A program made the translations under genes and the position numbers. From the NCBI RefSeq assembly GCF_027942865.1, contig NC_134524.1, positions 5,275,036-5,339,035 of the forward strand: 64,000 nt of DNA, written 5' to 3'. Source of the DNA: Odontesthes bonariensis (Eukaryota; Chordata; Actinopteri; Atheriniformes; Atherinopsidae). Under the pieces are notes generated by a model, which did no database searches, was not told the origin of the DNA, and saw only the letters and a program-made list of their open reading frames with translations. Every line of letters starts with the position of its first letter. Position 1 is the first letter of the stretch. Of the stretch, positions 1,752-60,699 are shown piece by piece.

Positions 1752-4700
1752 ATGCTGGTAACACCGTTCTGCATGATGCTGGGTGAGTTCCAACGCTGAT
1801 GTTTCTATCAGGACGTTGCTTCTCTTTCAGTGGATTTATTTTTAGTTGTTCCACAGATCTTTCATTCTCTCTTTTTTTCTTGCTCTCTCCATTGTGTTTT
1901 TATTCCTCAAACTTTTCGGTTTTACCCGACACGCTTCCTCTAACATTTTCCTGTCTTTCTATTCTCGATTCTTTTTTAATTTTTCGATCTTTTGTGACGC
2001 TTTCATCCCTCCTTTTGTTTCATCTCAAAAGTCCTAAATATCACATTTTATTTCAAGAAATCTTGACAAGCTGATTTTCACTAGTTCCATTGGCAGATTT
2101 ATTTTGCTTATTTCAAGCAAAAACGTCTTTTATTTGTTGTTTTTTTTACTTATTTTTGGAGGGGCATTTTTTCCAGTGTTCTCTTTTTCTCTATATCTTT
2201 CTAGCTCTGTTTTCCCCTTTTTATTTCTTTGAAAGTTATCTTACTTTTTTGTGTTTGCCTTCTCTGTTTCATACAATTCATTATGTTTTTTTTGCTTGTT
2301 TCTTCCCTTTTTCTCTCTCTCTTTGCTCTCTTTCTTCCCTTCCTCTTCCCCTCCCTGCAGCCTGTCTCCAGGTCCAACCCGACAGATCTCAGTTCTTCCG
2401 CTATGACTCCATCTCTCTGAGCTGTGAGGATGAGTTCAACTCCACCGGCTGGAGGGTCAAGAGGAAGACGGCAGATGTGGGTGTCCGGGCCTGCTCCTCC
2501 GGCTGGGGCTCCACCTCCTCGGGCTCCACCTGCATCATCAGCACCACCTACCCGACGGACACCGGGGTGTACTGGTGCGAGTCGGAGACGGAGCAGAGGA
2601 GCATCGCTGTCAACATCACCATCACTGGTGCTTCACACTGCATAGAAACAAGTCTTTCAAGTGCTGATGTGCCACACATGAGTTGAACTTAACCGCCTTA
2701 AACGATGCAGATTTTACACCTGAATCTATGTCAGTGCACTGGAAAAAACAACTCGTAAGATTTACTTAAAAAGCGCTAAAGTGACTTTTTGGTGAAGTAA
2801 ACTCTATTAGAGTAACTGTCATAATTTCATCCTTGTATTCTTAAGATTCAGTAAGAACTAGAGCTTCTTAAGTAAAATTAAACATTTTATTAACGTAATA
2901 CATGAATTATGGGGGAAGAGTAAGTTTTACTTAGGTTTCCTCATACAATTTAAACGTTTAATAGTTGTATGTACATAAACCTAGAAATACTACATAAACT
3001 TTACTCTGAAAGTGTATCGTTAAAATCTACTAAGTTACTTCATAACAGCAAATACTACAGATATATCAAATTTATCTAAAGTTGCGCCTGTTACGGTGTT
3101 TGCTGCTCGGTCTGCACAGCAGGCAGTGATATGAAGGGAGAGAAAATAGGGCCAAGTGATTGTGAGGTCTGACTTTTTCTGGAGAACGATTTTGTGATGC
3201 AAATGTATTACTCTTTTGAACGCATATTGTTTTGAGAAGCAAAACGCTTTATTTTTTAAACCCCAGCCAACGTCGTCAACACCAAAACGAGGCTGGAACT
3301 CTGCTCACAGGACGCAGCAGGGGGTAAGAAGATGTTCATAAATGATGTTGCTGATATGGGATGTCATACAGCTTCATGTCAAAAGAGGCGAACTGTCCCT
3401 TTAAGAAGCTCTAGTTCTTACTGAATCTTAAAAATACAAGGTAGAAATTTTGACAGTTTCTCTAATAGAGTTTACTTCACCAAAAAGTCAATTTTTTCAG
3501 TGTATTAGAACCGCTAACGTGGTGCTTTTCCTTTCTACAGATCGGCCTGTGATCCTGGAGAGTCCAGCTCTCCCGGTGTCGGAGGGCGCCGCTGTGACTC
3601 TGCGCTGCAGAGCTGAGACGAACCCCTCGGACCACACGTACGATTTCCACAAGGACGGCCGCTCCGTCAGGAGCAACTGCTCAGGAGAGATGAGCATTCG
3701 CGGCGCTTCCAGGTCCGATGAGGGGCTCTACACCTGCAGCATCTCCGGAGGCGCAGAGTCAGCCGGCAGCTGGCTGACGGTCACAGGTGACGCGGCTCAG
3801 GGAGGAGAAGCCTGTCGGATGCTTTCCGTGCTTTAGCCAAGCAAAAGAAACAATCCTTTAAAAAAATCCCAGAAATTAGCCTCTTCTTCTGGTGTCACTC
3901 TTAGAGTGTCTCATCGTATCTGAGAGGATGTCAGTCAGACACAATGATGTTGCTTCTGTTTCCCCCCGAATGTGCATCTATTTGCCAAAGGCAAGAGCAG
4001 AGCAGGTAAACATTTCCACACGTTTCTGGAAGGTTTTACCGTGTTTATCTACTTTTTTATTAGTTATATCTTCTAAATGTAAACAAACGATCTATTAATG
4101 CAGTGAGAACCTGCAAAATCTGGTTATTTTCAGTCCTTTTTGGCATGGACTGTACATAGAAGATGGATGTTTTTGGAGACTCTGTAATGAAAGATTTAAC
4201 CCTCTTTAAAGGGATAGTTCGCCTCTTTTGACATGAAGCTGTATGACATCCCATATTAGCAACATCATTTATGAACATTTTCTTACCCCCTGCTGCGTCC
4301 TGTGAGCCGAGTTCCAGCCTCGTTTTGGTGTTGATGAAGGTAGTTACGGCTAGTTGGCTGGGGTTTAGAAAATAAAGCGTTTTGCTTCTCCAAACAATAT
4401 GCGTTCAAAAGAGTAATACATTTGCATCACAAAATCGTTCTCCAGGAAAAAGTCAGACCTCACATACTCTTGGCTCTATTTTCTCTCCCTTCGTATCACT
4501 GCCTGCTGCCGACAGCCGCGCCTGTTACGGTGTTTACTGCTCGGTCTGCACAGCAGGCAGTGATACGAAGGGCTAAGGTTAACCACATGTTTTTAGGGTT
4601 AGGGTGTAACAGAAATTGGTGTTCACCTCATATACACTGGTATTTAAAGGGTTATTTCTTTTTTTAAATAATTGAAAACTTGGTGGTTATGATCAGAACT

Positions 4701-8079: not shown

Positions 8080-8085
8080 TTTATT
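8080..8085 (-). terminator. Poly(A) signal of the 453-residue membrane protein gene
   Basis: AATAAA on the minus strand about 155 bp beyond the TAG at 8239-8241. Confidence 0.6.
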
Positions 8086-8238: not shown

Positions 8239-11200
8239 CTAGAGTCTCTGAAATTAAAAAGAGAAAGATTAGCAAAGGCCAGAGGTTGCACAACCGATCA
8301 GATACAAAGCCTTGTAACTTACTCTATCTATCCTACGTTTCCTCAAGACCCAAACAGCTGCTGCAGCAATCACTGCAACGACTCCAACTCCAAATAAAAC
8401 ACCAATTACTTTGCCAGCTCCACTGCTTTTATCCCCTGAGAGTGTGTAAGGACAAAGAAGCATCAAGTATAGCGGAAAAGTTTGTTTTTTGATTTGAGTG
8501 CAAAGATAAAAAGATAAATATGGTTAAAAAATAAAGATAAAAAAGATCAATATACCTGTTACAGAGGCCTCATCCAGGGTTCTGGTCTTGTCACCATCTT
8601 TTCTCTGGTTTACAGATGCTGTTAAATAGCAGAAAATTCAAATCCACACATTAGATTTCATAGCGAATCATCCTACACTGCTCAGCCAGAAGCTTATTTA
8701 TTGGATCCGGTTCTGACTGGGAGCCCTGATTGGTCTGCAGCTACACTGCCACATATGAAATAAACTGCAACGTATTGTGTGTTCTGACACATATTTGAAC
8801 TTTTCTTTTTCTTAGCAAATAGAGCTACAGCCCATTGTTCATGTCTTATCTTGGATGAGTGAACGTGGTTTGCTTTTCCTTCCAGCTACAGTCGAGAAAA
8901 AGTTTGGATTTGTTTCACTCTTCAAGCACCAGTACGATTCTGGCCTCTGCAGGGAGACTGTAGCTAAAAGTTGAGGCTGTTCCAACACTAAAAGGACACA
9001 AATCTGAACCTCAAGCAGTTTGTGAAACAGTTTCAAATGTCTGTGTTGGGTTGGCATGAGATGTATGAATGGATTTTAGTAGAAACATCATGAATGAAAG
9101 GGCAGCTTAGCTTCAGCAGGTACTGAACATATTTACCAGCCAGAGACATCCTGCTGCTCACTTTGATGTTTGGGATCCGATTCTGACTCCAGCATCTACG
9201 GCTGCATTTCATGTGTTGTCACGCTTGAAAACAGTGTTTTCTCGTGCTGTTGGTTTATATTAGTCTACAATTAGTGGGCGTTCACGTGTCAGCGTCACCA
9301 CTAGGGCTGAGCAATTTTATCGATACTGCGATATATATCGATATTTTGTTTCCCGATAAAGTATCGAGTTTTAAATTTTTATTTTATTTATTTATTTATT
9401 TTAAAGCAAACTTTATTGAATCGTCAGCCGTTCCAATTAGTAAAAACACAGAACATTAATATAATACAATACAATACCAGGGGGTCACTTTCTACAAAAC
9501 AGTGATAAATTAGTTGATAAAAATGTTGTATAAAGTCCACAGCTCTCACGTTTGTTTCCGTTTGTCCTTCCGCTTCAAAGGACGGACACCAGTCCAATCA
9601 ATCGAATCGCATCGAATCGAATCGCATCACATCGAATAGCATCATGACATTCGTGTATCGCTACAGCCCTAGTCACCACCCTCCCACCACGCTGAGCAAA
9701 CCTCCAGGAATTCGACGAATCAGAGGACACATTAGCCAGATCCTGTGTTCCATCATTCAGATCTAATCCCAAACTATTCTGGGGTATGAAGCGTGCAAAA
9801 AGGGGCCAGAGTCTAAGAATGAAATGATTGCACCATGTCCAGAGGAATTGTTGCTCAACACAAGTTGTATGATTATCTACCATCACATACTCGATGGAAA
9901 GGTGCTCGTGGTTTCTTGGTTAGTTGTTGGCACAGAGGTTGAAGTTGATGGAGGAACTGTAGTGATTGGTCCTGAAAACATAGCAAACAAATGTGAAAAC
10001 TTATAGTGAGAAAAGCAGGGAGGGAAAATATGAAAAAAAACATGCCAAAGTGAAGAAACAGCCACTCACTGGTGTCGATGGTCACAATCACACAATGTAG
10101 CTCAGAGTGGTACCTGAATGAACTGGGGAAAGTTTTTTAAAGAGAAAATCACACAAACAGAAGACATTGAACTCCATTCAGAGTAACTCTGACAGAGTAA
10201 ATGCTAAGTAAAGAGTATTTATATCTTCATAGATTATTTCCAGTGATCATACTGACTTGTGCATTGACTGGACCACAAAGCACACAGGGTGGGTTTCTCC
10301 ATTTTGTTCCTCTGATGGGGTCAAAGCCAGAATGAACTGTCCGTTCGATCCTTCAGGGCGGCTCTTAACACCATGAGGCCCACTAAGCACGAGCCTAGAA
10401 ATCCTTTACAAAAAAAAGTTAAATAAATTCAAAAGCAAAAGATGAAAGAAACCATCTATCTGTTCAGCATGAATGATGGTCCAAGGAGGTTAGAACGGGT
10501 AACATTCTGATGTGATGGCACTTTTAATGCTACAGGATATGTATTTTTGGGGTAACATTTGCTTCACATCCATATTTTCCAGTTAAAGGTTAGCTTGGAT
10601 TACATCAAAGCTCCATAGTTAGAGTTATTAAACTGGCCAGCCTGCCATCCATAATTATATGGAACAAAAAACAATCAAATGTGATAATAGTCCAACCTGA
10701 ATTGCTATTTAATGCAAGACGAGATACACACCTTTTTAGAAAAGCCTTTAGCTTAAAGGGACACTATGTAATAAATTAAGTAATTTATTAGCTCAAATCA
10801 ACATATTCATTCATAAATGAGTCCTCATTGGTGTAAAATTATCTCTGTCAAAAATCTCAATTATCCTCCTGAGTGAAGAATAACTTGTCTGTATCTACAG
10901 TCTGCTGTGCAGACCGAAGCGCAGACCGAGCAGCAAACACTGTAACAGGCGCGGCAGGCAGCAGCAGGCAGTGATATGAAGGGAGAGAAAATAGCGCCAA
11001 GCGATTGTGAGGTCTGACTTTTTCCTGGATCTCATTTTGTGATGCAAATGTATTACACTTTTGAACGCATATTGTTTTGGGAAGCAAAACGCTTTATTTT
11101 CTAAGCCCAGCAAACTAGCCGGACTACCTTCATCAACACCAAAACGAGGCTGGAACTCTGCTCACAGGACGCAGCAGGGGTAAGAAGATGTTCATAAATG

Positions 11201-14200
11201 ATGTTGCTGATATGGGATGTCATACAGCTTCATGTCAAAAGAGGCGAACTATCCCTTTAATGCTCACTTGTTGGTTTTGTATTGATATTTGTCATTAACA
11301 TGTCAGTAACACAGTGGAAGAATAAGTGGGGGGGGGGGGGGGTTACAGAATAATGAAAACACAAAACAAACTACTTTTATGTCAGACTGCAGCTCTCAGC
11401 ACACAGACCGACATATATATTTGAGTTCTCCAAGTAGTTTAATAACAGCAGTGATGATGATTAAATCGTTTCTCTTTACTCACTGGGATTCTTTTGCCTC
11501 TGCCACAATGGTAACTTCCAGTGTCTCATTGATAAAAGCGATCAGCTGAGCCCCGTAAGCTGGGGTTGGAGGAAGAAACCTGGGCAGGTAGAGTCCCTCC
11601 GAGCAGGACGGAGCAGCAGGGTCAACTGTAACAACACAGAGATGACAGCGACCATTACACCCAAGAGCAAGATGGTTCGTAGCTGAAGAAATATATGCAG
11701 AATATTCCCGTTTTCACACAATGAGCTGACCGTTTGAGACCGTCCTTACAACTCGAGTTGCAGCTTACAGTAGATCTCACTTCATTTATCCTTTCCAAGT
11801 GATTTTCCTCCTACATTACTGAGTACTTCTGTGTCTACTTCCACCCTGAAGTTTACCAGTTTACCAACTTTAGAATAAATACTACCTATCAAAGCAAATC
11901 TGACTGGTATTTTGCTGAGAGCGTCGGTGGGACTTCTTGTTGTCTTCACGCCGTCGTCCTGAATGAGGGAAAGACTCTGGTTTGGGAAGTCCTCCATCTC
12001 TATCTGCACTGCATACGGACCTTCGGTCTCACTGCCGGTAGGGGAGAACGACAACGTGCACGACTGCCGAAGGACAAAACAACAGACACGTTATAAGTTA
12101 AAAAACCAGCCCAGAAAGTGACATAACAGGAAACCGATTAACCGATTCTTTTTGGTTGTTGTTTTTTTAGCCGCCCTTCATGACTTTCAGACTGTTTCTG
12201 CGTCCTGAGTTTCTTTGGCCTGACAATTACCACACACACACTCAGTCCTAGGGACAATTTAGAGATGCCAATGAACCAAACATGCATGTTCTTTGAACAG
12301 TGGGAGGAACCATTACGCCCAAGAGCAAGATTGTTCTTAGCTGAAGAAATATATACAGAATATTCCCGTTATCACACAATGAGCTGTCGGTTTGAGACCG
12401 TCCTTACAACTCGAGTTGCAGCTTACAGTAGATCTCACTTCATTTATTCTTTGCCAAGCGATTTTACTCATACATTAAGGAGTACTTCTGTTTCTACTTC
12501 CACTCTGAAGTTTGATAGTTCCAACTTTAGAATAAATCCCACCTATCAAAGCAAATCTAACTGGTATTTTGCTGTGGTCGCAGGGGGGCTGGAGCCTATC
12601 ACCAGCCCACACTCACACTCACACTCACTCCTCGGAACAATTTAGAGGCGCCAATTAACCAAACATGCATGTTTTTTGGACAGTGGGAGGAACCATTACT
12701 TCCAAGAGCAAGATTGTTGGAGTATTGTTGGAGTTGGCGATTGGAGGACCCAGAGAGAACCCACGCATACACGGGGAGAACATGCAAACTGAACACAGAA
12801 AGGCCCCAGCTTGGAGTTGGACCTGGAACCCTCTCGCTGTGAGGCGACGGTGCTAACTACCACAGCACCGTGCAACTTTTCTTCATCGTTTCCTGTGGCA
12901 TGGAGGCTTGGATCGTTGTGTAACTTTGTGACAGAAAGTGTAACTCACAGGTGAGATGGTCAGAACAGACGGCGGTGAACAAGGACTACACTCGTCTGCT
13001 GCTGTCTTTCCAAATCTGCATTTCACTCGGTCTGCGTCCGGGTCAAAGGCCAACAATCTGAAGTCTCTTTGGCAGTTTGAGGGAACTCTGGCACAGACAC
13101 ATCACATGCGTTATTTTGTGCTTTCACAGACTTCAAAGTAATACGTTACCACCATCGCATGAGTCTCATTGCTCAAAACATACAAAGGTATTTTGCATAC
13201 TTCACTGTTTTGATGGGAGATGCACTACATTATAGTATACATACTAGAGTTTGCATACTTAAAGGGATAGTTCGCCTCTTTTGACATGAAGCTGTATGAC
13301 ATCCCATATCAGCAACATCATTTATGAACATCTTCTTACCCCCTGCTGCGTCCTGTGAGCAGAGTTCCAGCCTCGTTTTGGTGTTGATGAAGGTAGTCCG
13401 GCTAGTTGGCTGGGGTTTAAAAAATAAAGCGTTTTGCTTTTCAAAACAATATGCGTTCAAAAGAGTAATACATTTGCATCAAAATCGTTCTCCAGGAAAA
13501 AGTCAGACCTCACAATCTCTTGGCCCTATTTTATCTCCCTTCGTATCACTGCCGACAGCCGGGCCTGTTACGGTGTTTCCTGCTTTGAAGCAGGGGACTG
13601 CTCGGTCTGCACAGTCTACACAGCAGGCAGTGATACGAAGGGAGAGAAAATAGGGCCAAGAGATTGTGAGGTCTGACTTTTTCCTGGAGAACGATTTTGT
13701 GATGCAAATGTATTACTCTTTTGAACGCATATTGTTTTGAGAAGCAAAACGCTTTATTTTTTAAACCCCAGCCAACTAGCCGGACTACCTTCGTCAACGC
13801 AAAAACTCGGCTGGAACTCTGCTCACAGGACGCAGCAGGGGGTAAGAAGATGTTCAGAAATGATATTGCTAATATGGGATGTCATACAGCTTCATGTCAA
13901 AAGAGGCGAACTATCCCTTTAACTGTTTTGATGGGAGATGTACTACAGTATACATACTAGAGAAGCTCACCGTAGGGCGGGCAGGATGGTGGTCTGAGGC
14001 GATCTGTTGGGTTTACCCGTGTCAGACCGAGTCCTCAAGTCCACCTGAGTCACTGCTCTCCAGCTGCTGACACCATTTTGGATGTTGTCTAACCAGTTGC
14101 CACCGTCCAACCTTTCAAATTTGAATGAGAGTCATAAATCAGATGAGCAGGTGCTGTTTGTTTGCTGGTTTTACTTTTGTCAGTGCTATTTCAGCTTGTG

Positions 14201-15282
14201 TTTTGTGGCGTGTTGCTGACCGCAGCTGAAATGGAGCATCGGTGAAAACCTGCCGAGTCATGACTCCTTCCCTTTGACACCACTCTCCAGTCTCCTCGTC
14301 CACGTTTTCCAGCTCCACTTTCTCAGACCCGCAATCCCCACTGATGCAGTTCCATGAATCTTCATCTGTGCATGAGCGAAAGCTCAGCTTATAGCGAAAC
14401 ACCACCTGCAGCATTGGAGCAAAATATGTTATGAAAGGTGACCACGGCTGTGTATTTATGTGGAAACCAGCATTTAGGCTGAGAATTCAAGGCTGATCTG
14501 CTTAAGCCTCAGTCATATGTTTTTAATAGGGCTGGGCAACGATTCAAATCTTTAATCTAATTAATCACATGATTTCCCTGATTAATCGCATTTGTACGCA
14601 AAATCCGAAAATGAATCCAAAAGTAGCGTATAGCTTTTAGCATTTAGTTTTATTTTAAATGTGCTGCCATATGAATGAAAGTGCCATAACATTTGTTGTG
14701 CAAACACACTTTTAACATCAGCATCTTTCTGTAGTTTTTATGTAGAAGCCTCGCTCCACTGTCTGTTTCCTTGAATGACTTGCTGCTATCAGTTGTGTGT
14801 TTTGCCTTTAAGTGATATTTTAGCCTGGAACTACTACGCTGAGAAGACAATTCAACTTGGCAGTGTTTACAGATGACTTTGGTTCTGTCGACTCCGCCGT
14901 CTGGAAGAACTTTAAAATGAAAATGGCCGAGTAAAAGTTCCGTACCCTTCTCCATGTTTGGTGGATCTGCCGATTACTTTCTTTTCCGGTTCCACAGCAG
15001 ACAGAGACAGACTTTTACAATAATAAAATAAATAATAAAACAGGGGGGGTCCGTGGCCTAGTGGGTTGAGCAGGCACCACATGTACAGAGGCTATAGTCC
15101 TCGCTGCAGCTGGCCCCGGTTCAAGTCCCGCATCGGACGGCCCTGTGCTGCGTGTTATTCCCCGTCTCTCTGCCCCCTGCTTCCTGTCTCTCTGAACGTT
15201 CCTATCCATTAAAGGCACAAAAGCCCCAAAAAAATTTTAAAAAATAAAAATTGGGGGGGGCTTTTGTGCCTTTAATGGCATG

Positions 15283-15338
<56 letters not shown>

Positions 15339-15763
15339 TTAAATAAAACCTGTGTTAATGTTGTGTTAAAAATCAAATATTTATCAGCGTTAAATAATCA
15401 TGGAGTTAACTCGTTATTATCGCGTTAACTCGCCCAGGCCTAGCTTTTAACAATGGAATATTTTCATTCAGGAGAATCTTTGCAGGTCAGTTTCTACCAA
15501 ATGAAACACCTATTGCTTCGAAACTAAATGTAAAAGGTAAGAAAACAAACACTAACTGGATTTGAAAAAAAAAGGACAAATGATGTTTCCAATGATTGAA
15601 ATTAAGTCAAAAGAAGATGCATATTTACTTGAACGGTGCCTACCATGATGGAGCCATTTTCCCAGGTTTCCTTTGGAGTAAAAGTCATCACTGTTCCATA
15701 GAAGTGGGAAGCCTGGACCCCACCCAGCAGGAACAGAGGAGTGAGCAGCAGGGCTGCAGCCAT
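8239..15763 (-). CDS. Fish-specific uncharacterised type I membrane protein, 12 exons
   Basis: Exons in transcript order: 15763-15644, 14405-14221, 14111-13971, 13087-12949, 12063-11886, 11625-11484, 10403-10257, 10113-10070, 9971-9891, 8618-8556, 8435-8323, 8247-8239. Lengths sum to 1362 bp (453 residues plus stop) and every junction keeps frame with GT/AG sites. The product starts MAAALLLTPLFLLGG (signal peptide) then SHFYGTVMTFTPK. It continues through a cysteine-bearing domain (RYKLSFRSC, WNCISGDCG), a segment with LLAFDPDADRVKC, a second with PYAVQIEMEDFP, and a third with SCSEGLYLPRFLPPTP, HPVCFVVQ and YHSELHCVIVT. A Thr/Ser/Pro-rich stalk, a Gly/Ala/Val membrane helix and a basic stub (RKRRIDRRL) follow. 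I recognise this layout from uncharacterised fish proteins; function unknown. The extremely short cytoplasmic tail argues against direct signalling. No catalytic motif is seen. Confidence 0.85.
9302..9671. mobile_element. hAT MITE with perfect 8-bp duplication
   Basis: Termini TAGGGCTGAGC and ACAGCCCTA are flanked by GTCACCAC on both sides (9294-9301 and 9672-9679). An 8-bp target duplication is the mark of hAT transposition. The interior has TATCGATA and ATCGAATCGCATC low-complexity arms. Intron 9 of the 453-residue gene. Confidence 0.9.
10901..11260 (-). mobile_element. TTAA fold-back element, half copy c
   Basis: Right half of the family, ending CTATCCCTTTAA. It lies in intron 6 of the 453-residue gene and is included in the inverted duplication with 25440-26661. 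A run of 14 G follows at 11329-11342. Confidence 0.85.
12305..12580 (-). pseudogene. Local tandem copy of intron plus 3' part of exon 5
   Basis: This block is a diverged direct copy of about 11650-11935, which spans intron 5 and the 3' part of exon 5. The exon remnant on the minus strand still shows the AAATACCAGTTAGATTTG region, but its reading frame and donor are altered and it joins unrelated sequence at 12580. It sits in intron 4 as a non-functional exon fragment. Confidence 0.75.
12590..12870 (+). repeat. Dispersed fish repeat (CATGCATG...GGGAGAACATGCAAAC family)
   Basis: Contains the phrases GGAGCCTATCACC, ACATGCATGTTTTTTGG, GAACCCACGCATAC and GGGGAGAACATGCAAACT, common to an abundant fish interspersed repeat. 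Related copies lie at 12245-12310, 33414-34370 (split) and 49200-49320. Confidence 0.7.
13259..13922. mobile_element. TTAA fold-back element, complete reference copy d
   Basis: A 664-bp near-palindrome. The left arm starts TTAAAGGGATAGTTCGCC; the right arm is its inverse and ends CTATCCCTTTAA. The arms are about 290 bp and meet around CACTGCCGACAGCC and CACAGCAGGCAGTG (13546-13635). TTAA at both ends is compatible with a TTAA-targeting transposon such as piggyBac. No transposase ORF. It lies in intron 3 of the 453-residue gene. Confidence 0.9.
14650..14955 (-). CDS. BED-type zinc finger fragment of a hAT transposase
   Basis: A 101-residue ORF beginning MEKGTELLLGHFHFKVLP. Residues about 28-55 have the BED pattern: VICKHC (C-x2-C), then SSSRLKYHLKAKHT (H-x4-H). 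BED fingers are the DNA-binding N-terminus of hAT transposases such as the ZBED group. The catalytic RNase-H domain is absent, so the element is non-autonomous. The same ORF recurs almost unchanged at 45082-45408 and 51748-52053. Confidence 0.75.
   Translation of the reverse strand: MEKGTELLLGHFHFKVLPDGGVDRTKVICKHCQVELSSQRSSSRLKYHLKAKHTTDSSKSFKETDSGARLLHKNYRKMLMLKVCLHNKCYGTFIHMAAHLK
15040..15235 (+). repeat. tRNA-derived SINE
   Basis: Box A-like TGGCCTAGTGGGTTGAGCAGG (15053-15073) and box B-like GGTTCAAGTCCCGC (15118-15131), spaced as in a tRNA gene, are followed by a unique tail ending CATTAAAGGCACAAAAGCCCC. It is nested in hAT copy A. It is not a functional tRNA, since the tail is continuous and no cloverleaf acceptor end is seen. 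Confidence 0.8.
15283..15342. repeat. AT dinucleotide and T-run microsatellite
   Basis: (TA)n from about 15287, then about 21 T, inside hAT copy A. Confidence 0.95.
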
Positions 15764-21070: not shown

Positions 21071-21488
21071 TTAAAGGGATAGTTCGCCTCTTTTGACATA
21101 AAGCTGTATGACATCCCATATTAGCAACATCATTTATGAACATCTTCTTACCCCCTGCTGCGTCCTGTGAGCCGAGTTCCAGCCTCGTTTTGGTGTTGAT
21201 GAAGGTAGTCCGGCTAGTTGGCTGGGGTTTAAAAAATAAAGCGTCTTGCTTCTCAAAACAAAATGCGTTCAAAAGAGTAATACATTTGCATCACAAAATC
21301 GTTCTCCAGGAAGAAGTCAGACCTCACATACACTTGGCACTATTTTCTCTCCCTTCAAATCACTGCCTGCTGTGTAGACCGTGCAGACCGAAGTGCAGAC
21401 CAAGCAGTAAACACAGTAATAGTAAAACGCAGTGATACGAAGGGAGAGAAAATAGGGCCAAGCGATTGTGAGGTCTGACTTTTTCCTT
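21071..21488. mobile_element. TTAA fold-back element, copy e (right arm truncated)
   Basis: Full left arm from TTAAAGGGATAG, then the centre, then only about 70 bp of the right arm, ending GACTTTTTCC. Confidence 0.85.
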
Positions 21489-25378: not shown

Positions 25379-25628
25379 TTTTCGGGACCCTAGCAAAACT
25401 GTCCTGTGAGCCGAGTTCCAGCCTCGTTTTGGCGTTGATGAGTTGATGAGTGTGTGTATGTGGTAATTGTCAGGCCAAAGAAACTCAGGACGCAGAAACA
25501 GTCTGAAAGTCATGAAGGGCGGCTAAAAAACAACAACCAAAAAGATTTGGTTAATCGGTTTCCTGTTATGTCACTTTCTGGGCTGGTTTTTCAACTTATA
25601 ACGTGTCTCTTGTTTTGTCCTTCGGCAG

Positions 25629-26207
25629 TCGTGCACGTTGTCGCTCTCCCCTACCGGCAGTGAGAGCGAAGGTCCGTAAGCAGTGCAGATAGAGATGGAG
25701 GACTTCCCAAACCAGAGTCTTTCCCTCATTCAGGTCGACGGCGTGAAGACAACAAGAAGTCCCACCGACGCTCTCAGCAAAATACCAGTCAGATTTGCTT
25801 TGATAGGTAGTATTTATTCTAAAGTTGCAACTGGTAAACTTCAGGGTGGAAGTAGACACAGAAGTACTCAGTAATGTAGGAGTAAAATCACTTGGCAAAG
25901 GATAAATGAAGTGAGAGCTACTGTAAGCTGCAACTCGAGTTGTAAGGACGGTCTCAAACGGTCAGCTCATTGTGTGAAAACGGGAATATTCTGTATATAT
26001 TTCTTCAGCTACGAACCATCTTGCTCTTGGGTGTAATGGTCGCTGTCATCTCTGTGTTGTTACAGTTGACCCTGCTGCGCCGTCCTGCTCGGAGGGACTC
26101 TACCTGCCCAGGTTTCTTCCTCCAACCCCAGCTTACGGGGCTCAGCTGATCGCTTTTATCAATGAGACACTGGAAGTTACCATTGTGGCAGAGGCAAAAG
26201 AATCCCA
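25629..26207 (+). pseudogene. Two-exon fragment of the 453-residue membrane protein gene
   Basis: Exon 5 equivalent 25629-25806 (178 bp) and exon 6 equivalent 26066-26207 (142 bp) keep the parental lengths and splice sites. In exon 5 the tyrosine codon of PYAVQ has become TAA (25677-25679), a premature stop. No flanking exons 1-4 or 7-12 are present, so it cannot encode the protein. Confidence 0.9.
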
Positions 26208-26422
26208 GTGAGTAAAGAGAAACGATTTAATCATCATTACTGCTGTTATTAAACTACTTGGAGAACTCAAATATATATGTCGGTCTGTGTGCTGAGAGCT
26301 GCAGTCTGACATAAAAGTAGTTTGTTTTGTGTTTTCATTATTCTGTAACCCTCCCCCTTATTCTTCCACTGTGTTACTGACATGTTAATGACAAATATCA
26401 ATACAAAACCAACAAGTGAGCA

Positions 26423-26661
26423 TTAAAGGGATAGTTCGCCTCTTTTGACATGAAGTTGTATGACATCCAACATTAGCAATATCGTTTATGAACATTTTCT
26501 TACCCCCTGCTGTGTCCTGTGAGCCAAGTTCCAGCCTCGTTTTGGCGTTGACGAAGGTAGTCCGGCTAGTTGGCTGGGGTTTAAAAAATAAAGCGTTTTG
26601 CTTCTCAAAACAATATGCGTTCAAAAGAGTAATACATTGGCATCACAAAATGAGATCCAGA
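26423..26661 (+). mobile_element. TTAA fold-back element, copy h (left arm)
   Basis: Counterpart of half copy c, carried in the inverted duplication. Starts TTAAAGGGATAG. Confidence 0.85.
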
Positions 26662-28132: not shown

Positions 28133-28741
28133 ACTTACCCCCTGCTGCGTCCTGTGAGCCGAGTTCCAGCCTCGTTTGGGGGTTGACGAAGGTAGTCCGG
28201 CTAGTTGGGTGGGGTCCCGAAAATTTTGCTTCTCAAAACAATATGCGTTCAAAAGAGTAATACATTTGTATCACAAAATCGTTAATCCAGAAAAAGTAAG
28301 ACCTCACAATCGCTTGGCGCAATTTTCTCTCCCTTCGTATCACTGCGTGCTGTGTAAACTGTGCAAACCGAAGTGCAGACCGAGCAGTCCCCTGCTTCCG
28401 AGCAGCAAACACCGTAACAGGTGCGGCTGTCGGCAGGTGGCTGAACGCATTGATACGAAGGGAGAGAAAATAGGGCCAAGTGATTGTGAGGTCTGACTTT
28501 TTCCTGGAGAACGATTTTGTGATGCAAATGTATTACTCTTAGAACGCATATTGTTTTGAGAAGCAAAACACTTTATTTTTCAAACCCCAGCCAACTAGCC
28601 GGACTACCTTCGTCAACACCAAAACGAGGCTGGAACTCTGCTCACAGGACGCAGCAGGGGGTAAGAAGATGTTCAGAAATGATATTACTAATATGGGATG
28701 TCATACAGCTTCATGTCAAAAGAGGCGAACTATCCCTTTAA
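28133..28741. mobile_element. TTAA fold-back element, copy i (left end missing)
   Basis: The left arm begins inside the family at ACCCCCTGCTGCGTCC and the right arm is complete to CCCTTTAA. 28742-29026 shows only the duplicated 75-bp segment noted at 21489. Confidence 0.85.
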
Positions 28742-29026
28742 GTTAAAAGTTTTTTTCTATTATTTTCATAGACAAATAGTCACTACACCTAATATAGAGA
28801 TTATTTGAAGGAGCTGAATGTGTGTCTACATGATCAAACTCACTGCCAATAACATAGCTGAAAGTCCCATCCCATAAACCTTCTGTCCCTCTCTGATGAA
28901 AGCGTGGCATCCCTCCTCAGTGCCAGCTTACCTTGGCTTGAAAACGGCTCGAGGACAACAGTGATGGCCTTCTCCCATGGGGAAAACCTGTGTGTCACCG
29001 ATGTTGGCCTCCTCGTCTCTCGGTAT

Positions 29027-36937: not shown

Positions 36938-39900
36938 CTCTCTTCTTAATGCAGTAACATGCAACTGCAACTGCAACCACAACCACAACCACAACCACAA
37001 CCACCACAGCAAGAACGATGTCAGTTTTATCTGTCAGGTTCACGGCTGCTGGAAGAATGTAAGAGACACTGAGTTAGATCCACAGAATAAAAACTGAAGT
37101 GCAGGCTGCTGTTAAAAGTACATTTTGGTGGGATTTTTCTGGCATTTCACCTGTTTAAATGAGTGAAATCTGTCTTAACCTGCTTAAGGTGGAATGTTAT
37201 AAAAAATACATTCATTTGCTATTTACTCTGTTTTGTTCTTAACTATGAAAAAACCTGTAATTAATAATTTTTCTCTCTTTAGAAGCTCTTAGAGGTTACT
37301 CACGCGTTGGTGTTGGATTGACGGTGGTCTGCTGAATGCCTAAGCAGCAACAACACAAATCGGCATCGGATTTAAAGGGAAAGAACCAATAAACACATTA
37401 AAAAAACATGTTTTAAAGAAGAAATACACTGTGCTAAAGTTTCACAGAAGTCCTCCAGAAAAAAAGAAATACATGTTCTAATGTTCAGACAGTAACTGCT
37501 GAGCTGACCTTCAGGGTTTGGGTCTCCATTGGTCAGTTCTGGAAGAGAAAATGACAAAGACTGAGAATTAAAGGCACATATGCAACCTGCTCTATATAAA
37601 AAGAGATAAGCTTTCTTTATTTTTGATATTCTTAACCACTTTTTTTCTCATTCCTTGAATCACTCACTGTTGCATGTCTGCAAAAGGTAGAAACTCACAA
37701 GGTCAACATATGCCCTGTTCTCTCCCGTTATATGGATATACGCCGATATCCAGTGATCTACATAGTGTTAGCCCGATTCTTTCATTGGAAGCCCGAGAAC
37801 AAGTTAAACAAAGTATTTATTGGTGGTCACAGGTGAAGTATAGCAGCGCTGGGCTCGGAGGGACAGAGCCCCGGCTTCCGGAAACATTTCATATTTATAT
37901 GACCCTTTATCTCACAGAGGTTGGACTTAGACTCGATAATAATTGGACATGAGCAGGTTCAACACCGCCTTCATCATGTTCTCTGGATAAGACAAACAAT
38001 ATGTGTGTGAATGTTGCTTTAAGCTTTATGCTTTCCCAGGCTAATTGTTTAGGCTCTCTATGCTATCTTAGAGTCTTGGACCATCTAAGGTCATTTATTG
38101 TGTGACCATATGAGCAGAGTGGAAAAGTACAAACTAGGAACATGGATTATTTAGTAAAATACAGAATATCAATTCTAAGAACAAAGCCAATTGAAAGGAC
38201 GCCGACTTTCACCAAACTGTTATCGGTGAGTAGATGAAGGTATTTTACGCCAGAAATAAGGTTCAGGTTTAAAACAAAAAAAAAAAAAAAAAAACGAACT
38301 TCCCCTTTAAGGAGTCACTTTTATCAATCTACATGTTGAAAATATGTAGTTTGTGTAGAGATACTGATGTAGCGTTCCGAAGTGTACAGGGCTCCTAAAG
38401 TCACTCTTTCCTGCTGACAAAAACTCACAAACAATACTCTTTGGAGCTGAGCAACACACTCCATTTATTCTTCTCCTCACCCCAGCGAACTCTGCAAAAA
38501 CAATAACACTCAGTGGGGTCACATGGCACTGAAAGGATCAGATTATTGGCTAAATTACAATAAGAATGAGTTGAGCAAGGGTAATTCTCCTTGGATATAT
38601 GGCGGTGAATGAATTGGATCAGAGGCACAAAGAGTGTCTGCTGTGCAGACCGAGCAGCAAACACCGTAACAGGCGCGGCTGTCGGCAGGCGGCAGTGATA
38701 CAAAGGGAGAGAAAATAGGGCCAAGCGATTGTGAGGTCTGACTTCTTCCTGGAGAACGATTTTGTGATGCAAATGTATTACTCTGTTGAATGCATATTGT
38801 TTTGAGAAGCAAAACGCTTTATTTTTTAAACCCCAGCCAACTAGCCGGACTACTTTCATCAACACCAAAACGAGGCTGGAACTCACAGGACGCAGCAGGG
38901 GGTAAGAAAATGTTCATAAATGATGTTGCTGATATGGGATGTCATACAGCTTCATGTCAAAAGAGGCAAACTGTCCCTTTAATCCGATCCAATTTATAGT
39001 CAGATTAAGGTGTCTACATGCACTTAATAACTCAGTCTGATTGTAATTTAGCCAATAATCCGATCATTTCAGTGCCATGTGACCCCATTGAGTGTCGCCT
39101 CTCTGGACGCCACACCCCCGCGCCTCACTGGGCTTCCTGTTCAGCTTCATCCCTGCAGTGTAGTTGTGCGCAGCGAGTCCGGCACACCTTAAACGGAGCT
39201 GCGCTGCTGTGCCCGTTCGCTAATACTGATAAAACATTTCTAATTGGAGCTAAACTGACCTACGAGGGAAAACCCGCACATGAGCACCCACATTCAGCTG
39301 ACCCCCTACTGCACTGATATTAGTAAAAACAAAGATTTGTGTTGATGTGGGGTTAGGGTTCTTACCAAGAGTCTGATTGACGCAGTATAGATATACTCCT
39401 GGAAGTCTTATGCAGCAACAGTAGGTTCCTATATCGGACATCACCACATGATCAATCTGGAGTGAGGCGTTTTGTTTTTTCAGTCCCTCGATCGAGGCAG
39501 CGAGACGCATCCTGTTTTTGTTTTTTTCGTTTTGGATCGTATTTTCTTTCACAATTAAAATATCTGAACCATCTTTCTTCCATTCCAATATATGATCATT
39601 ATTTAGAGGGAGTTTTGGGATACATGGGAGAGTTACAGTACTGCCATTCACAGCTTTTACTGGTGGATTCCTCTTGTATTTTAAAGCGTTTGGTGGACAG
39701 GCATCGTCTGCATCGCTTCCACCTGTAATGTAGAAAACAGCCTCCATCAGCATACACTCCACAGATGTGAACATGGCACAAAGCTGAAAGCAACAACACA
39801 GACACAAGGCTGAAAAACTACAGCCCGCATCTGTCATTTCTAAGATTTCTATAGCAGATCATGAAAAAAGGTTAGCAACAGGTTAGCAACAGCTTAGCAA

Positions 39901-43224: not shown

Positions 43225-46200
43225 ATGGAGCTCGTGTCGACCTGCCTTTTCATTGGTGAGATTTTTTCAGTTGTAGCCTCTTATGTTTTTGCTCTGATTG
43301 GGTTATTTTTGTCTTTTTAAAGCACTAAATCTACCAACGTCTGCTGTCAACTCTCTGAAGTCAAATCTCCTGCTGACCTCAGCAGTCTGTAACGTTTAAA
43401 AGAGGAAAAGTCTGGAGTTGAGTTTTAAGCCTAAAATATGTTCAATGTTTAAGCTAATTTATACAAAAAAAACTGCTTAATGAGGACAAATCTAGCTTCC
43501 TCCCATCTTGAACTGCTGTCTCGACCATAATCATCTGCTGAGTCGGCGACCACAGACGTTCCTGTGGCAAACATTCAGGGTTTCTTCCTGTTCGTTTGGC
43601 TACAGCGCTGAAGAAAACATTCAGATTCTGCACCAGGTCACATCTGCTGATGTCGGTCAGACTTGTGCCGGGTTATAAGTGATGATGTGAATGTTTATTT
43701 TAGCCTCGGTGCTCGTTCAGACATGACACCGACATTAGTTTGAGTCAGATTAATGGAGAGCAGTGTGTTTCTGAATGGTACTTACTTCTCTTTGAGGCGT
43801 CTTTGTGGTTTTACTCACACGCTTACTTTTAAATTCTGTTGAAAAGCTAAACTTCCTGTTTAGCTCCACCTTAGCTGTACTCTTATCAACCCAAAACCCT
43901 CTGATATGATGCAGAAGTCACAGCTGAATCAAATACTTGCAAGCTGTCCAGCTCCTGAGGCAGCTGACCCATCCCATACCATGACAATCCCACCACCGTG
44001 CCTCACATATGTCTATAAGCTCTTTAGAAGCAGCTCAGCGATGTTCAGGTGTTTAAATTCTTCCCCCGCGCTGCAGATGTTATGTTCTGTGCTTCGGACT
44101 GTTACAAATGCATTATGGGATGTATCTAAAAAGGAAGCAGACGTCACACAGAACGCATGTCAGCCTCACAGCAGCATCAGGTTTACACGGAATCGGACCA
44201 GCCTAAGAGTTACTGAAGTAAAGGGCATGTTTCCATCTTTGAGCGACCACAAAGGGCCTTTTTACAGATGTCCGCCTCATGGTTTCTCCTGGTCTCTCAT
44301 TTCCTCTTTTAGGAGCAGCTTTGCTGACGATCCAGCCCGACAGATCTCAGTTCTTCCGCTATGAATCCTTCAATCTGACCTGTGCCCCGCCGGGCAACTT
44401 CAGCGGCTGGACGGTGATAAGAAACACCTCTGAGCCGTTTGCTCCGTGTAAAGCCTGGGGGCGACAGAATGGGTCCTCCTGCATTAATCGCAGCGTCTAT
44501 AAGTCAGATACCGGACTCTACTGGTGCCAGTCTGAGCAGGGACACTGCAGCAATGCCCTCCACATCACTGTGACCAGTACGTAAATGTTCTTTCAGGTTT
44601 TTCCTGCTTCTAGTCACACAGTGAACTGCAGAGAAGAATATTATGAGGTGAGCTGATCACCGAACACCTTTAAAAGTAGAATATTTCTGTCAGAGAGCTG
44701 AGATGGAGCCCCGTAACCTTTCTTTGAATTGTTATTTTTGCATTCAGTCACTGTTTCCTGGTGCCTTCACTTGCTGTTTAATGGCTGTTTCACTCATTAA
44801 AAAGCAAAAGATTAAGGTTATAAAACATCGAGGCCGACATTAAAAGTAGGGCTGGGCGAGTTAACTCGTTATTATTGCATTAACTTGTTAATTATTTAAC
44901 GCCGATAAATATTTTATCGCACATTAACGCAGGTTTTATTATTTATTATTATTGTAAAAGTCTGTTGCTCACAGGCTTTTATTTTTGTAAAAGTCTGTTG
45001 CTCACAGGCTTTTATTTTGTAAAAGTCTGCTGCTGTCTGCTGCGGAACCGGAAAAGAAAGTAATCGGCGTATCCACCAAACATGGAGAAGGGTACGGAAC
45101 TTTTACTCGGCCATTTTCATTTTAAAGTTCTTCCAGGCGGCGGAGTCGACAGAACCAAAGTCATCTGTAAACACTGCCAAGTTGAATTGTCTTCTCAGCG
45201 TAGTAGTTCCAGTCTAAAATATCACTTAAAGGCAAAACACACAACTGATAGCAGCAAGTCATTCAAGGAAACAGACAGTGGAGCGAGGCTTCTACATAAA
45301 AACTACAGAAAGATGCTGATGTTAAAAGTGTGTTTGCACAACAAATGTTATGGCACTTTCATTCATATGGCAGCACATTTAAAACTAGAAAGCTGCAAGC
45401 AGCTGTGAGCGGGACCGAGGTGTGCGTACGTTGGATGTGCGCACGTTGGGGCATGCGCTGGATGCCGTAGACGCGCAGCTCTGCCCACACGCACGATACC
45501 CTCTGCGTACGTACGAGCACATAATAACCCCAATGCGGAGGGGTTTTTGAAAATTTCTAGGGGGCGCCACTGAGCCACTTTGCTCAGCCCACACACAATA
45601 CCCTTTACATACGTACGAGGTCGTCAGGGTGGACGTGTGTGCCAAGTTTCATGACTTTACGATGATGATAAGGCTTTCATATTACAAACGCCATCACACG
45701 ATTTTCACCTGTGGCCACGCCCACACCGTTCAGAGTTTGGAAAAGTTTCTCCATGAAGTTTTGCCCTCATGTCTTAAGAGTAACCTGGCCAAGTTTGAAG
45801 ATTTTAGCATGAAATATGTAGGAGGAGTTTGATCAAATAAGAGGCCTGGAAAAAAATGAAGTTTCCAACCACCATTAGGTGGCGCTGTAGGTGGATATCA
45901 CTTTTTTGTATGTGCACGTTCAGGCTGGGTCCAGCATTCACCGTAATAAGTTTGGGACAGATTGGATAATGTATGTGGGAGTTATAAGCGATTTAATTTT
46001 TTATGGCGCGTCATAAATTTGAGGTGTCGCCACGGCCACGCCCTTTAAGTTTTGAAAAAGTTGGCCAATGATTTTTTCGGCCCATGTCTTAAGAGCAACC
46101 TGGCCAAGTTTGAAGGTTTTTGTATTAAATATGTAGGAGGAGTTCGATCAAATGCGAGGTGTGGAAAAAAAAAGACATTTCCAACCACCAGCAGGTGGCG

Positions 46201-49040
46201 CTATAGGTGGATGTCACTATTTTATATGTGAGCTTTCAGTCTGGGTCCAGCATTCACCGTATGAAGTTTGGGACAGATTGGATAATGTATGTGGGAGTTA
46301 TAAGCGACTTCAATTTTCGTGGCGAGTGATAGCGAGTCATCAAACTTTGAGGCGTCGCCACGGCCACGCCCTTTAAGTTTTGAAAAAGTTGGCCAATGAA
46401 TTTTTCCCTCCATGTCTTAAGAGTAACCTGGCCAAGTTTGAAGTCTGTAGCATTAAATCTGTAGGACAAGTTCGATCTTAAGCAAGGCGTGGAATCGGTC
46501 AAAAATGGCACGAAAACGCACTTTCCATCCAAAATGGCCGACTTCCTGTGGACGTGGGACCATGGCGACATGAGACTTTTTTTTGCATCTGGGCATGATG
46601 AATGAGTGTACCGAATTTCGTCGTCCCACGCGAAACTAATCCTATTAAGGGGACCATTTTTAAGCATCATAGGGGGCGCTACAGAGTCAATGAGCGACTC
46701 CCAAAAATATAAAGTTTAGATTCTTTCATGTCGTCGACCAGCAGGTGGCGCTCGCAAAATTTCCTGAGTTTTCGCATACCTTTTGCAAAGAATAAGAAAG
46801 AATAATAATAAACCTTACAGATACAATAGGGTCCTTGCAGTTTCACTGCTCGGTCCCTAATAAAACTAAATGCTAAAAGCTATTCACGACTTTTGAAAAA
46901 ATTCAAATACAAATGCGATTAATTGCGATTAATCAGGGAAATCATGTGATTAATTAGATTAAACGTTTTAATCGTTGCCCAGCCCTAATTAAAACACACC
47001 CTGCTCTAATGTGTCCTTTTCCTGGATCACCGGCTCCTGCCCAGAAGTCCAACTGAAGTCCTCCTGGATGGAAACATAACTTTGTTTTTCTTTTGTCTGT
47101 TTGAATTCCAGCTGACACTGTGATCCTGGAGAGTCCTTCACTTCCTGTGACGGAGGGAAAGAACGTGGAACTGACCTGCTCCTGCAGGGGAAGATACGAG
47201 CCCACGTCTTCATCAAACTTCACTGCTAAGTTCTTCAGAAACGACACATTCATCGGAGAGCAGCCCGGTGGAAAGATGCGTCTTTTAGGAGTGTCCCCGT
47301 CTCATGAAGGCTTCTATGAGTGTGAACACCCCACAAGAGGACGGTCCCCGCAGAGCTGGCTGGCTGTGAAAGGTGATCCTGTTCTGCCATGTGTAGCATC
47401 TGTGTGATTAGCACCATTATCGAGTGTAGAAGAAGAGATGATGAAGCAATGATGGAGGCAGCAGTCACTGCTGGCTCACAAGTAAAAACAGCACAATTAG
47501 ATGATAGTTTTAGGACACAAAGTCAGAATCTGTTCCCTAAAAAGGAGGATTTTAGAAACAGTCTGATGGCTGTGAAATACGCTTCAGCCTCATTACTGAT
47601 GAGAATGTGAAGGAGCATCAGCTGGTGTTGCATGTAGGGACTGGAGAGCCGTCCCGCTGAGCTCCCTGCCACCATCACCTGAGCTGCCAGCCTGGTTATG
47701 ATCAAAAGAGTCAAACTGATGCAGAGGTGAGAAGGGAGGGAGAGAAGAATCCTTAGTCCAGTGGTGAGGGCTTTAAAACAGGATCCTGGAGGTCAACATG
47801 CAGGGTCTCTGGATGCTAAACTGTTAGATCCACCCAAAGTGATTTAGTGTTAAAACAGGAATCAGACCTCCAATTGCTCTGTCTGTGAAAAAGACAAAAG
47901 CCAATGAAGATAACGTAGGAATTAATAGAATTCCAGTCAACCATGGAGACCTGATCCACAGCAGCGAGTTACATCAGAAGCAGAGGTTTCTGTACCCATG
48001 CAGGGTTAAATCTGTCTTATCCAAGCGTCTCACACCAGGTACCGACAAGTCAACAGCACGGCCTGTAACCAAAACCCCGAAATACAACATGACATACTTT
48101 TCATTCTCTTCTGTTAACCACATGTGTGTCATTGCATGCCATGTAAGGACAAGCTCTGAGCTCTGAAAACCAGGTGGGTGGTGACACATTAACACTGGTG
48201 TTTCCTTCTTTCAGTGAAAGACACGCCTCCCAACCCTACCAACCCTCCTCCCAAGTCTCAGACCAGACTGCTGCTCTCCATCCTGCTGCTACTCCTCTCC
48301 ATCGTTATAGTCCTGATGGGAATCTACGTAAACCGAAGGCGGGCTCGAGGTAAGGCCGTCCTTTTATTCTTTTTATCTTATTCATCTTTAACAATGCCGT
48401 GTGACCACTGCTCAAGTTCTGTGGTGAATCCTTCATTAAGTTCTGACACACGTCTCGCTCTGACATCACCTTACAGCCATGTGTTCTGGCTTCTTTACTT
48501 CTTTTTGAGATATCTGCGGATAAATGTTCCTTTAACTGAGATATCTGCAGATAAATGTTCCTTTTAATGAGATATCTGCAGATAAATGTTCCTTTTAATG
48601 AGATATCTGCAGATAAATGTTCCCTTTACTGAGATATCTGCAGATAAATGTTCCTTTTACTGAGATATCTGCAGATAAATGTTCCTTTTGCTGACATATC
48701 TGCAGATAAATGTTCCTTTTACTGAGATATCTGCAGATAAATGTTCCTTTTACTGACATATCTGTAGATAAATGTTCCTTTTGCTGAGATATCTGTAGAT
48801 AAATGTTCCTCTCTGTCCGTGTTCACACTTCAGTCTGCAGGGAGAACTGAACCAGGCTCAGATCAAACACTTATCAGCACTGCACTGAGTTCTGTGGTGA
48901 ATCCTTCATTAAGTTCTGACACACGTCTCGCTCTGACATCACCTTACAGCCATGTGTTCTGGCTTCTTTACTTCTCTTTCCCTGCAGCTCGAGCTGAAGA
49001 CAGAGGGAGAGCTTCAAAGCGTCTGACCCCTCAGCGATGA
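43225..49040 (+). CDS. FCRL-like receptor gene 2
   Basis: Exons: 43225-43255 (leader MELVSTCLFI), 44313-44576 (Ig1), 47112-47372 (Ig2), 48215-48349 (stalk and membrane), 48988-49040 (tail, TGA). All phase 1; 744 bp, 247 residues. Ig1 has PDRSQFFRYESFNLTC and TGLYWCQ; Ig2 has VELTC and EGFYECE. Several N-glycosylation sites (NGS, NRS, NFS, NFT) are visible. A proline-rich stalk precedes a leucine-rich helix with no charged residue, then NRRRARA. The tail, ending KRLTPQR, has no tyrosine motif, so signalling would need partners, yet the usual acidic membrane residue for FcR-gamma pairing is absent. The Ig1-Ig2 intron carries a hAT element with a Helitron-like insertion. Convergent with the gene at 51282-57134, probably a duplicate. 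Confidence 0.85.
45082..45408 (+). CDS. BED finger ORF of hAT copy B, 3' end altered by insertion
   Basis: The same BED ORF as at 14650-14955. Its last residues (LESCKQL) come from the inserted Helitron-like sequence after HMAAHLK. Confidence 0.7.
   Translation: MEKGTELLLGHFHFKVLPGGGVDRTKVICKHCQVELSSQRSSSSLKYHLKAKHTTDSSKSFKETDSGARLLHKNYRKMLMLKVCLHNKCYGTFIHMAAHLKLESCKQL
45385..46860 (-). mobile_element. Helitron-like element, copy 2
   Basis: Comparison with hAT copies A and C shows the empty site ATTTAAAATAAAAC; here CTAGAAAGCTGCAAGC to CTCGGTCCCTAA is inserted between A and T, with no duplication. In its own orientation it ends AGCTTTCTAG. An internal unit containing AACCTGGCCAAGTTTGAAG is repeated three times (about 45780, 46090, 46425), accounting for its greater length than copy 1. 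Confidence 0.65.
48506..48812. repeat. 31-bp minisatellite in the last intron of FCRL-like gene 2
   Basis: About ten copies of GAGATATCTGCAGATAAATG plus TTCCTTTTACT. It is bracketed by an 85-bp direct duplication (48417-48502 and 48888-48972, starting GTTCTGTGGTGAATCC), the second copy of which leads directly into the tail-exon acceptor. Confidence 0.95.
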
Positions 49041-59188: not shown

Positions 59189-60084
59189 GGCTGTGTTCGA
59201 AACCGCAAACTTCTCCTACTACTCCTACTAACTTTTTGAGTTAGTATGCGAGTTTGAGTAAGCGAGAAGTTCCCGGATGCATACTAGATTGGCCAAAATG
59301 TTGGGTATGCATCATGAGGTTACTACTCGTACTCAAACTACCCAAGATGCAACGTAACGTGACGTCGCAGATCGTCATTTCCTCTCAAAACGGCAGTTTC
59401 AAGCTAGCTACAACGAGGGTAGGTTCACTTCCTGTTTTCAAAACAAAAGCACCAATTGTATCGTAATGGCTTTCCCTATGATAAAAGGCAACGGGTATTT
59501 TATTTTGGGAAAATAACCTGAAGTGCGTTGGTCACTGTGGCTAGCTTTAGTAGCACCGAATTCGTGGGAACAAAATTGTAAACAGCTGGTATTTTGTCAG
59601 GTTTTCAACACGTTGGGGATCTAAACGACTACTTTCTCGCCTGAAAATTAAGAGCTTAAGAGAAATCAGCTTCAGGCCGGCTGATTTCGGCTCGGGCAGG
59701 AGGGAAATGCATTGTGGGTAAACGTTCTGCATACTGTCTGATCGATGAGTATGCAGTAAGGAAGTATGCAGTATGTAGTATGTAGTATGCCGTATGCAGT
59801 ATGTAGTATGTAGTATGCAGTATGCAGTATGTAGTATGCAGTATGCAGTATGTAGTAAGTAGTATGTAGTATGCAGTATGTAGTATGCAGTATGTAGTAT
59901 GTAGTGTGCAGTATGTAGTGTGTAGTATGTAGTATGTAGTATGTAGTATGTAGTATGCAGTGTGTAGTATGCAGTATGCAGTATGTAGTATGTAGTATGT
60001 AGTATGCAGTATACAGTATGCAGTATGCAGTATGTAGTATGCTGTATGTGGTATGTAGTATGCAGTATGCAATATGTAGTATGT

Positions 60085-60118
<34 letters not shown>

Positions 60119-60658: not shown

Positions 60659-60699
<41 letters not shown>

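Follow-up and report, generated by a model that had tools for sequence, protein, structure and literature searches.

The stretch of DNA analysed in this study, hereafter the window, comprises 64,000 nucleotides of the fish Odontesthes bonariensis (contig NC_134524.1, positions 5,275,036 to 5,339,035), and the gene under study lies on its minus strand between 15763 and 8239. It is a real gene of twelve exons; all the internal boundaries are GT/AG, a single open frame runs from ATG to TAG and a candidate AATAAA polyadenylation signal is present 3' of the stop (8080..8085, minus strand), in agreement with the twelve-exon gene proposed at this place in a preliminary description of the window. The coding length of exactly 1362 bp given there needs correction, as 1362 bp is the sum of exons 1-11, the coding part of exon 12 contributes a further 9 bp including the stop, and the joined length is 1371 bp with the stop, i.e. 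456 amino acids (aa). On balance, we favour a type I membrane glycoprotein as the product of this gene, with an ectodomain head at about aa 19-368.

The protein is ordered as signal peptide, three domains, Thr/Ser-rich stalk, one transmembrane (TM) helix and the tail RKRRIDRRL, all encoded on the minus strand. Exon 1 (15644..15763, 120 bp) carries the signal peptide MAAALLLTPLFLLGGVQA and the start of domain 1 (SHFYGTVMTFTPK), the hydrophobic N-terminus ending VQA ahead of SHFYG. Domain 1 continues in exon 2 (14221..14405, 185 bp), which contains cysteines 52, 60, 65 and 83, and ends in exon 3 (13971..14111, 141 bp; W..T.VDL..RSDTG.PN.SP.TTILP). The first and second halves of domain 2 lie in exon 4 (12949..13087, 139 bp; AFDPDADRVKCRFG) and exon 5 (11886..12063, 178 bp), and domain 3 begins in exon 6 (11484..11625, 142 bp; VDPAAPSC...PRFLPPTP), passes through exon 7 (10257..10403, 147 bp) and ends in exon 8 (10070..10122, 53 bp; SELHCVIVTI). 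Exon 9 (9891..9971, 81 bp, rich in Thr, Ser and Pro) and exon 10 (8556..8618, 63 bp) form the stalk, exon 11 (8323..8435, 113 bp) encodes the TM helix VIGVLFGVGVVAVIAAAAVWVL (about 8344-8409) with the basic tail, and the coding part of exon 12 (8239..8247, 9 bp) adds R-L-stop. Exons 2 and 4 to 8 are supported by the frame and by comparison of introns with the paralogues, exon 2 also by paralogue exon matches; exon 3 aligns with the bacterial module described below and is backed by paralogue exon matches and intron comparison as well. As exons 9-12 (stalk, TM and tail) found no match elsewhere in the genome in the whole-genome search, the counts of which are lower bounds, the model there is drawn from splice sites and frame only.

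The Thr/Ser stalk and the short tail of the preliminary description are both seen in the translation, together with four N-glycosylation sequons. The TM helix is single and uncharged, with 3 Gly among 22 residues and a GxxxG motif at aa 428, and the tail consists of nine residues, is basic and has neither tyrosine nor NPXY; recognisable signalling motifs are absent from the gene. The Pfam scan of the 456-aa protein returned nothing above cut-off, hence no VWA, zona pellucida (ZP) or immunoglobulin (Ig) domain, and in the sequence searches of the PDB the head had no clear relative (best E 1.3, 2.2, 0.018 and 0.15). Three segments were expected to be repeats of each other; the three domains do exist, but hhalign between them detected no repeat (pairwise E 0.25, 0.64 and 0.072) and this reading was dropped.

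Relatives of the head were found in bacteria. Direct scanning of bacterial genomes with the fish protein gave no relative (16 pattern matches, 0 by tblastn). Bacterial genomes were also scanned with a back-translated HFRGG pattern, and one of the three matches (L027, in a record titled as a Deltaproteobacteria metagenome-assembled genome) is a secreted protein beginning SHFRGG; the other two (L026 and L028) were set aside as chance matches. The first 340 aa of L027 match the Pfam family PF24907 (SIBA-E_N) with an E-value of 3.9e-6, 0.8 bits under the cut-off. Its genome (G001) holds five copies of the module, within open frames measuring 478 to 2441 aa, and two of the five exceed the PF24907 cut-off. 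A four-copy profile detected the module (E <=1e-8) in 19 of 377 genomes sampled from the phylum; in 15 the match spans most of the module and in 4 a part of it. Eighteen bacterial sequences were aligned, excluding L043, the second matches of genomes G339 and G070 and the partial L063-L066; SIBA-E_N is matched at E up to 0.1 by 16 of these 18 (best 1.8e-11), and L057 reaches 40.5 bits (cut-off 28.1). On contig C463 of G001, two neighbouring open frames (L044 and L045, 2424 and 2441 aa) both start with the module, and L027 continues into PKD domains after it.

Comparison of the fish module with four bacterial sequences by hhalign gave 93.8% with an E-value of 1.7e-7, and a parallel four-sequence run scored 53.0, against 14.0 for the reversed profile and 21.0 for the best of 60 shuffles. 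The eighteen-sequence module raised the result to 99.3% (E 3.8e-20), a single collinear alignment of 295 columns running through the three domains; its score was 145.7, the reversed bacterial profile gave 15.6 and the best of 20 column shuffles reached 23.7. Against the bacterial module, the window protein on its own scored 104.1 (E 2.1e-14; 7.3e-17 without the signal peptide). Taken separately, domains 1, 2 and 3 gave E-values of 4.4e-6, 1.2e-11 and 2.4e-5 over 54, 82 and 67 columns, each exceeding all 15 shuffles. By these profile computations the fish and bacterial modules are homologous and, through the bacterial module, related to the N-terminal part of the Sib receptors of Dictyostelium. 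Capture of the head from a virus was also considered and was rejected, two viral-contig scans having given no relative.

Of 10 domain 2 and domain 3 fragments taken from the window gene and its paralogues, 6 had a sub-threshold Pfam match, Ig-like in five cases and unrelated in one (AcetylCoA_hyd_C). The Ig-like ones include Ig_SIBA-E_2nd at E 0.011 and Ig_SIBA-E_3rd at E 0.0077, each located in domain 2. Reversed fragments matched in 1 of 10 cases, with an unrelated family (zf-RING-like, E 0.15), and we treat the fragment matches as supportive only. The domain 1 fragment of the window gene gave only DUF1280 (E 0.1). A PF24910 match in the paralogues had been taken as domain 3; the fragment scan places it in domain 2, and therefore the argument for collinearity with Sib from that match was abandoned. 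The search of the genome with PF24908 returned four sub-threshold matches; when the window protein was compared with them by tblastn (E up to 5 allowed), only one weak match appeared (E 1.1). One frame of L023 was also inspected, and these matches were set aside.

The bacterial module is predicted to fold into tandem beta-sandwiches with a predicted local distance difference test (pLDDT) score of 90; a first model from one sequence reached a pLDDT of 62 and was not used for fold search. The preliminary description had left the ectodomain among uncharacterised fish proteins. A profile search now reaches an adhesion family, and the structure searches, carried out only with the bacterial relative, led to general Ig, cadherin and adhesin chains and to no structural match with a defined family of a different role; among the chains listed, none covers all three domains well.

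At least eight further loci in the genome match the module exon by exon. At least 37 exon matches came from the whole-genome search; they fall in the gene itself, in an inverted fragment within the window, at three loci on the same contig as the window (C24, 18.47-18.51 Mb) and at five on contig C1 (43.12-43.21 Mb), so that the relatives of the gene are placed on another contig and 13 Mb away. The paralogous loci were extracted as eight regions with five later extensions, and the splice-aware alignment recovered the window model as a control. Seven introns within the three domains have the same positions (within 1-2 alignment columns) and the same phases (0,2,2,0,1,2,2) in the window gene, L029 and L032, and the position of the first intron is common to these two paralogues and L030; as the script is guided by the query protein, concordant positions are favoured, but phases are left free. 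In L030 all five covered introns agree in position and phase, and in L033 six of seven agree, one being shifted by seven columns and one extra intron being modelled near a poorly defined start. In a tree of six copies the window gene groups with L029/L030 (support 1.000), apart from the C1 copies. The alignment of the fish copies excludes L034 (stop in domain 3) and the partial L031, L035 and L036, and L030 is represented in it by domains 1-2 and the beginning of domain 3.

The head is found in three settings in this genome, namely TM-anchored in the window gene, with mucin repeats at the three C24 loci and linked to ZP at five of the five C1 loci. At the C1 loci, ZP-module exons lie 0.1-1.7 kb beyond domain 3, on the same strand (L032, L033 with L039, L034 with ZP-C only, L035, and L036 with L040). 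The ZP piece of L032 matches ZP-N (1e-17) and ZP-C (6.6e-14) in Pfam and one chain in the PDB, TGF-beta receptor 3 (1.1e-4); its ZP exon begins about 300 bp past domain 3, and in our reading it would be an internal exon of the same gene as the head. The three C24 copies at 18.5 Mb carry long Thr/Pro repeats after the head. Very long Thr/Pro-rich tandem repeats occupy 3601-5001 of L030 and 55-1776 of L038, the stretch in L030 being open in more than one frame. No ZP match was obtained in the DNA taken around the C24 copies or in the window. We know of no description of a Sib-like head followed by ZP exons, the combination present in the C1 cluster. A head that precedes mucin-like repeats at some loci and ZP modules at others is consistent with a family of binding proteins of epithelia or leukocytes.

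Between the window gene and L029, the closest of the copies compared, the nonsynonymous (dN) and synonymous (dS) rates are 0.323 and 1.344, giving a dN/dS of about 0.24; pairs involving the C1 copies show saturation, and L029 and L030, which are recent duplicates, differ by 15 changes (dN 0.015, dS 0.024). On the plus strand at 25447..26660 the window holds an inverted partial copy of 1.2 kb, 96% identical to 11025-12244, which is a pseudogene fragment outside the working gene; its exon 5 has an in-frame stop and the protein of its exon 6 is identical to that of the gene. As L034 also has its stop in domain 3, two copies with stops indicate that the family turns over. These two copies might be taken to mean that the window gene itself is unexpressed or decaying; with twelve exons all open, canonical splice sites and the dN/dS value given above, we consider this improbable.

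The surroundings of the gene are those of the immunoglobulin superfamily (IgSF), as had been noted earlier. Four of seven neighbouring open reading frames match Ig models of Pfam above cut-off (3432-3833, 39256-39858, 47105-47404 and 63087-63530) and the remaining three show weak Ig matches below it (2078-2683, 44243-44581 and 55152-55535); in our reading, the cluster is Fc-receptor-like (FcRL-like). A search of the flanks, 100 kb on each side in 20 pieces of 10 kb, found no second copy of the gene, and because of this and of the location of the relatives elsewhere, the position in the cluster is weak evidence for a role. A receptor of the IgSF that diverged within this cluster would agree with the location and with the Ig-like beta-sandwich matches of the bacterial relative. 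The protein has, however, no Pfam match to the superfamily, its domains are split over several exons with phases unlike those of the neighbouring FcRL-like receptors, its paralogues are located 13 Mb away and on another contig, no signalling motif is present, and the homology with the bacterial module spans three domains. Membership of the superfamily was rejected on Pfam, exon phases and kinship, and we regard this origin as very improbable, although through the bacterial relative the head may belong broadly to the Ig-like fold class. A palindromic repeat element, about 82-98% identical between copies, lies at 13259-13922 and, among other places, at 3103-3404, 4206-4572, 10929-11260, 21071-21487, 28134-28743 and 62445-62785; two of the gene's introns contain it, it recurs all over the window, and it looks like a non-autonomous transposon. 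A long minisatellite is present at 1-1000 and 59550-60919 (minus strand), with frames that read as CILHTAYYILHTTY repeats.

Judged from its sequence, the product of the gene is probably a binding protein rather than a receptor of the ordinary immunoglobulin type. As a whole, the explanation we find best, and hold with some reserve, is a three-domain head homologous to the bacterial/Sib module on an extracellular binding or adhesion protein without its own signalling. The head may bind a ligand outside the cell, a glycan or protein of microbial or cell-surface origin, and would then act by extracellular capture, that is, by adhesion, as a co-receptor or, should shedding occur at the stalk, as a decoy. 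Dimerisation could be mediated by the GxxxG-containing TM. Since the basic tail has no tyrosine and the TM has no charged residue, the protein is unlikely to signal through a tail of its own or to engage, via a charged TM residue, an adaptor bearing an immunoreceptor tyrosine-based activation motif (ITAM). The surface recognition or decoy role suggested earlier is compatible with an ectodomain that is secreted, then anchored and devoid of signalling motifs; its placement in the cluster gave it weak grounds, and the bacterial/Sib-type homology is the stronger support.

The Dictyostelium Sib receptors (SibA-SibE; PF24907 SIBA-E_N, PF24908 and PF24910) are, like the window protein, type I membrane proteins with a single TM, which in the window protein contains some glycines, and the order of an N-terminal Sib-type domain followed by Ig-like domains is shared by profile homology through the bacterial members. 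According to passages in PMC9197732 and PMC12686525, Sib proteins are adhesion receptors which bind talin via NPXY tails, and a glycine-rich TM is given as a Sib feature in part of PMC9197732. The window protein, on the other hand, has no VWA domain, no NPXY tail and hence no expected link to talin, and no direct Pfam match above cut-off; the shared type of head without VWA and NPXY is the reason for proposing extracellular capture without own signalling. In the bacterial secreted 'SHFR-G' proteins (18 aligned, e.g. L027/L042, L046 and L057) the same three-domain order stands right after the signal peptide over the 295 aligned columns; those of G001 lie in open frames of 478-2441 aa, whereas the fish copies carry a Thr/Ser stalk with TM, mucin repeats or ZP exons.

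Several observations weigh against this explanation. Neither the window gene nor the paralogues scanned gave a direct Pfam match to SIBA-E_N, and a six-frame search of the genome with PF24907 found nothing, a weak test because domain 1 is spread over three exons; of 71 genomes in the class of G001, only 1 yielded PF24907 itself. The link to Sib runs through bacterial members, and the hhalign E-values apply to a single pair and carry no correction for database size. Compared with four bacterial sequences, domain 1 by itself did not reach significance, scoring 14.8 where the best shuffle scored 17.5, and its alignment with the eighteen is limited to 54 columns. The VIA-align rows include hardly anything of domains 1 and 2 of the model. 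The dN/dS is derived from one pair with high dS, and L029/L030 give 0.015/0.024 on 15 changes. Finally, adhesion modules can keep their fold and yet lose their function.

By analogy with the zebrafish omcins, the paralogues with ZP exons suggest that the setting is mucosal, and a further reading builds on this, in which the family captures microbes in mucosal defence in a role like that of uromodulin, GP2 and the omcins, with ZP copies as extracellular filaments, mucin copies as gel formers and the window gene as the membrane version. ZP exons at five of five loci of the C1 cluster and the clustered, duplicating copies agree with it, as does the report, in part of PMC11415648, that zebrafish omcin5 (D10C-EGF-ZP) is induced by bacteria and that mutants are more susceptible. 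The window gene, however, has no ZP, and according to the same part of that paper omcins carry a D10C/EGF head at the N-terminus, so the likeness, which lies in paralogues followed by ZP exons and in clustered duplicating fish genes, is one of role only; we consider this reading possible and hold it tentatively. Slightly less credit is given to a cell-cell or cell-matrix adhesion or structural protein without an immune role, whose place beside IgSF receptors would be accidental. Purifying selection against L029, relatives of adhesion type and the empty flanks are in keeping with such a protein, but the lineage duplications and the multi-format family resemble, in our view, defence or mucosal genes more, and we find it rather unlikely. 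For the capture protein favoured here, we infer an action of the module on microbes.

With this study the window protein takes a place next to a family whose type of role, adhesion, is known. A Sib-type head, described in amoebae, is now indicated in a vertebrate-type genome, with ZP or mucin sequences in its paralogues; in the open-access literature no description of the module in fish appeared among the matches listed, judged by title or beginning of abstract, most subscription papers being outside this scope. It is conceivable, as a tentative picture, that an ancient three-domain adhesion head shared by fish, bacteria and the particle-gripping receptors of social amoebae was kept or gained in fish and spread over membrane stalk, mucin and ZP formats as a surface family binding microbes or particles, with one member in an Fc-receptor-like cluster. 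These outcomes make it testable whether the heads bind microbes and whether the membrane-anchored copy acts on leukocytes or in the mucosa.

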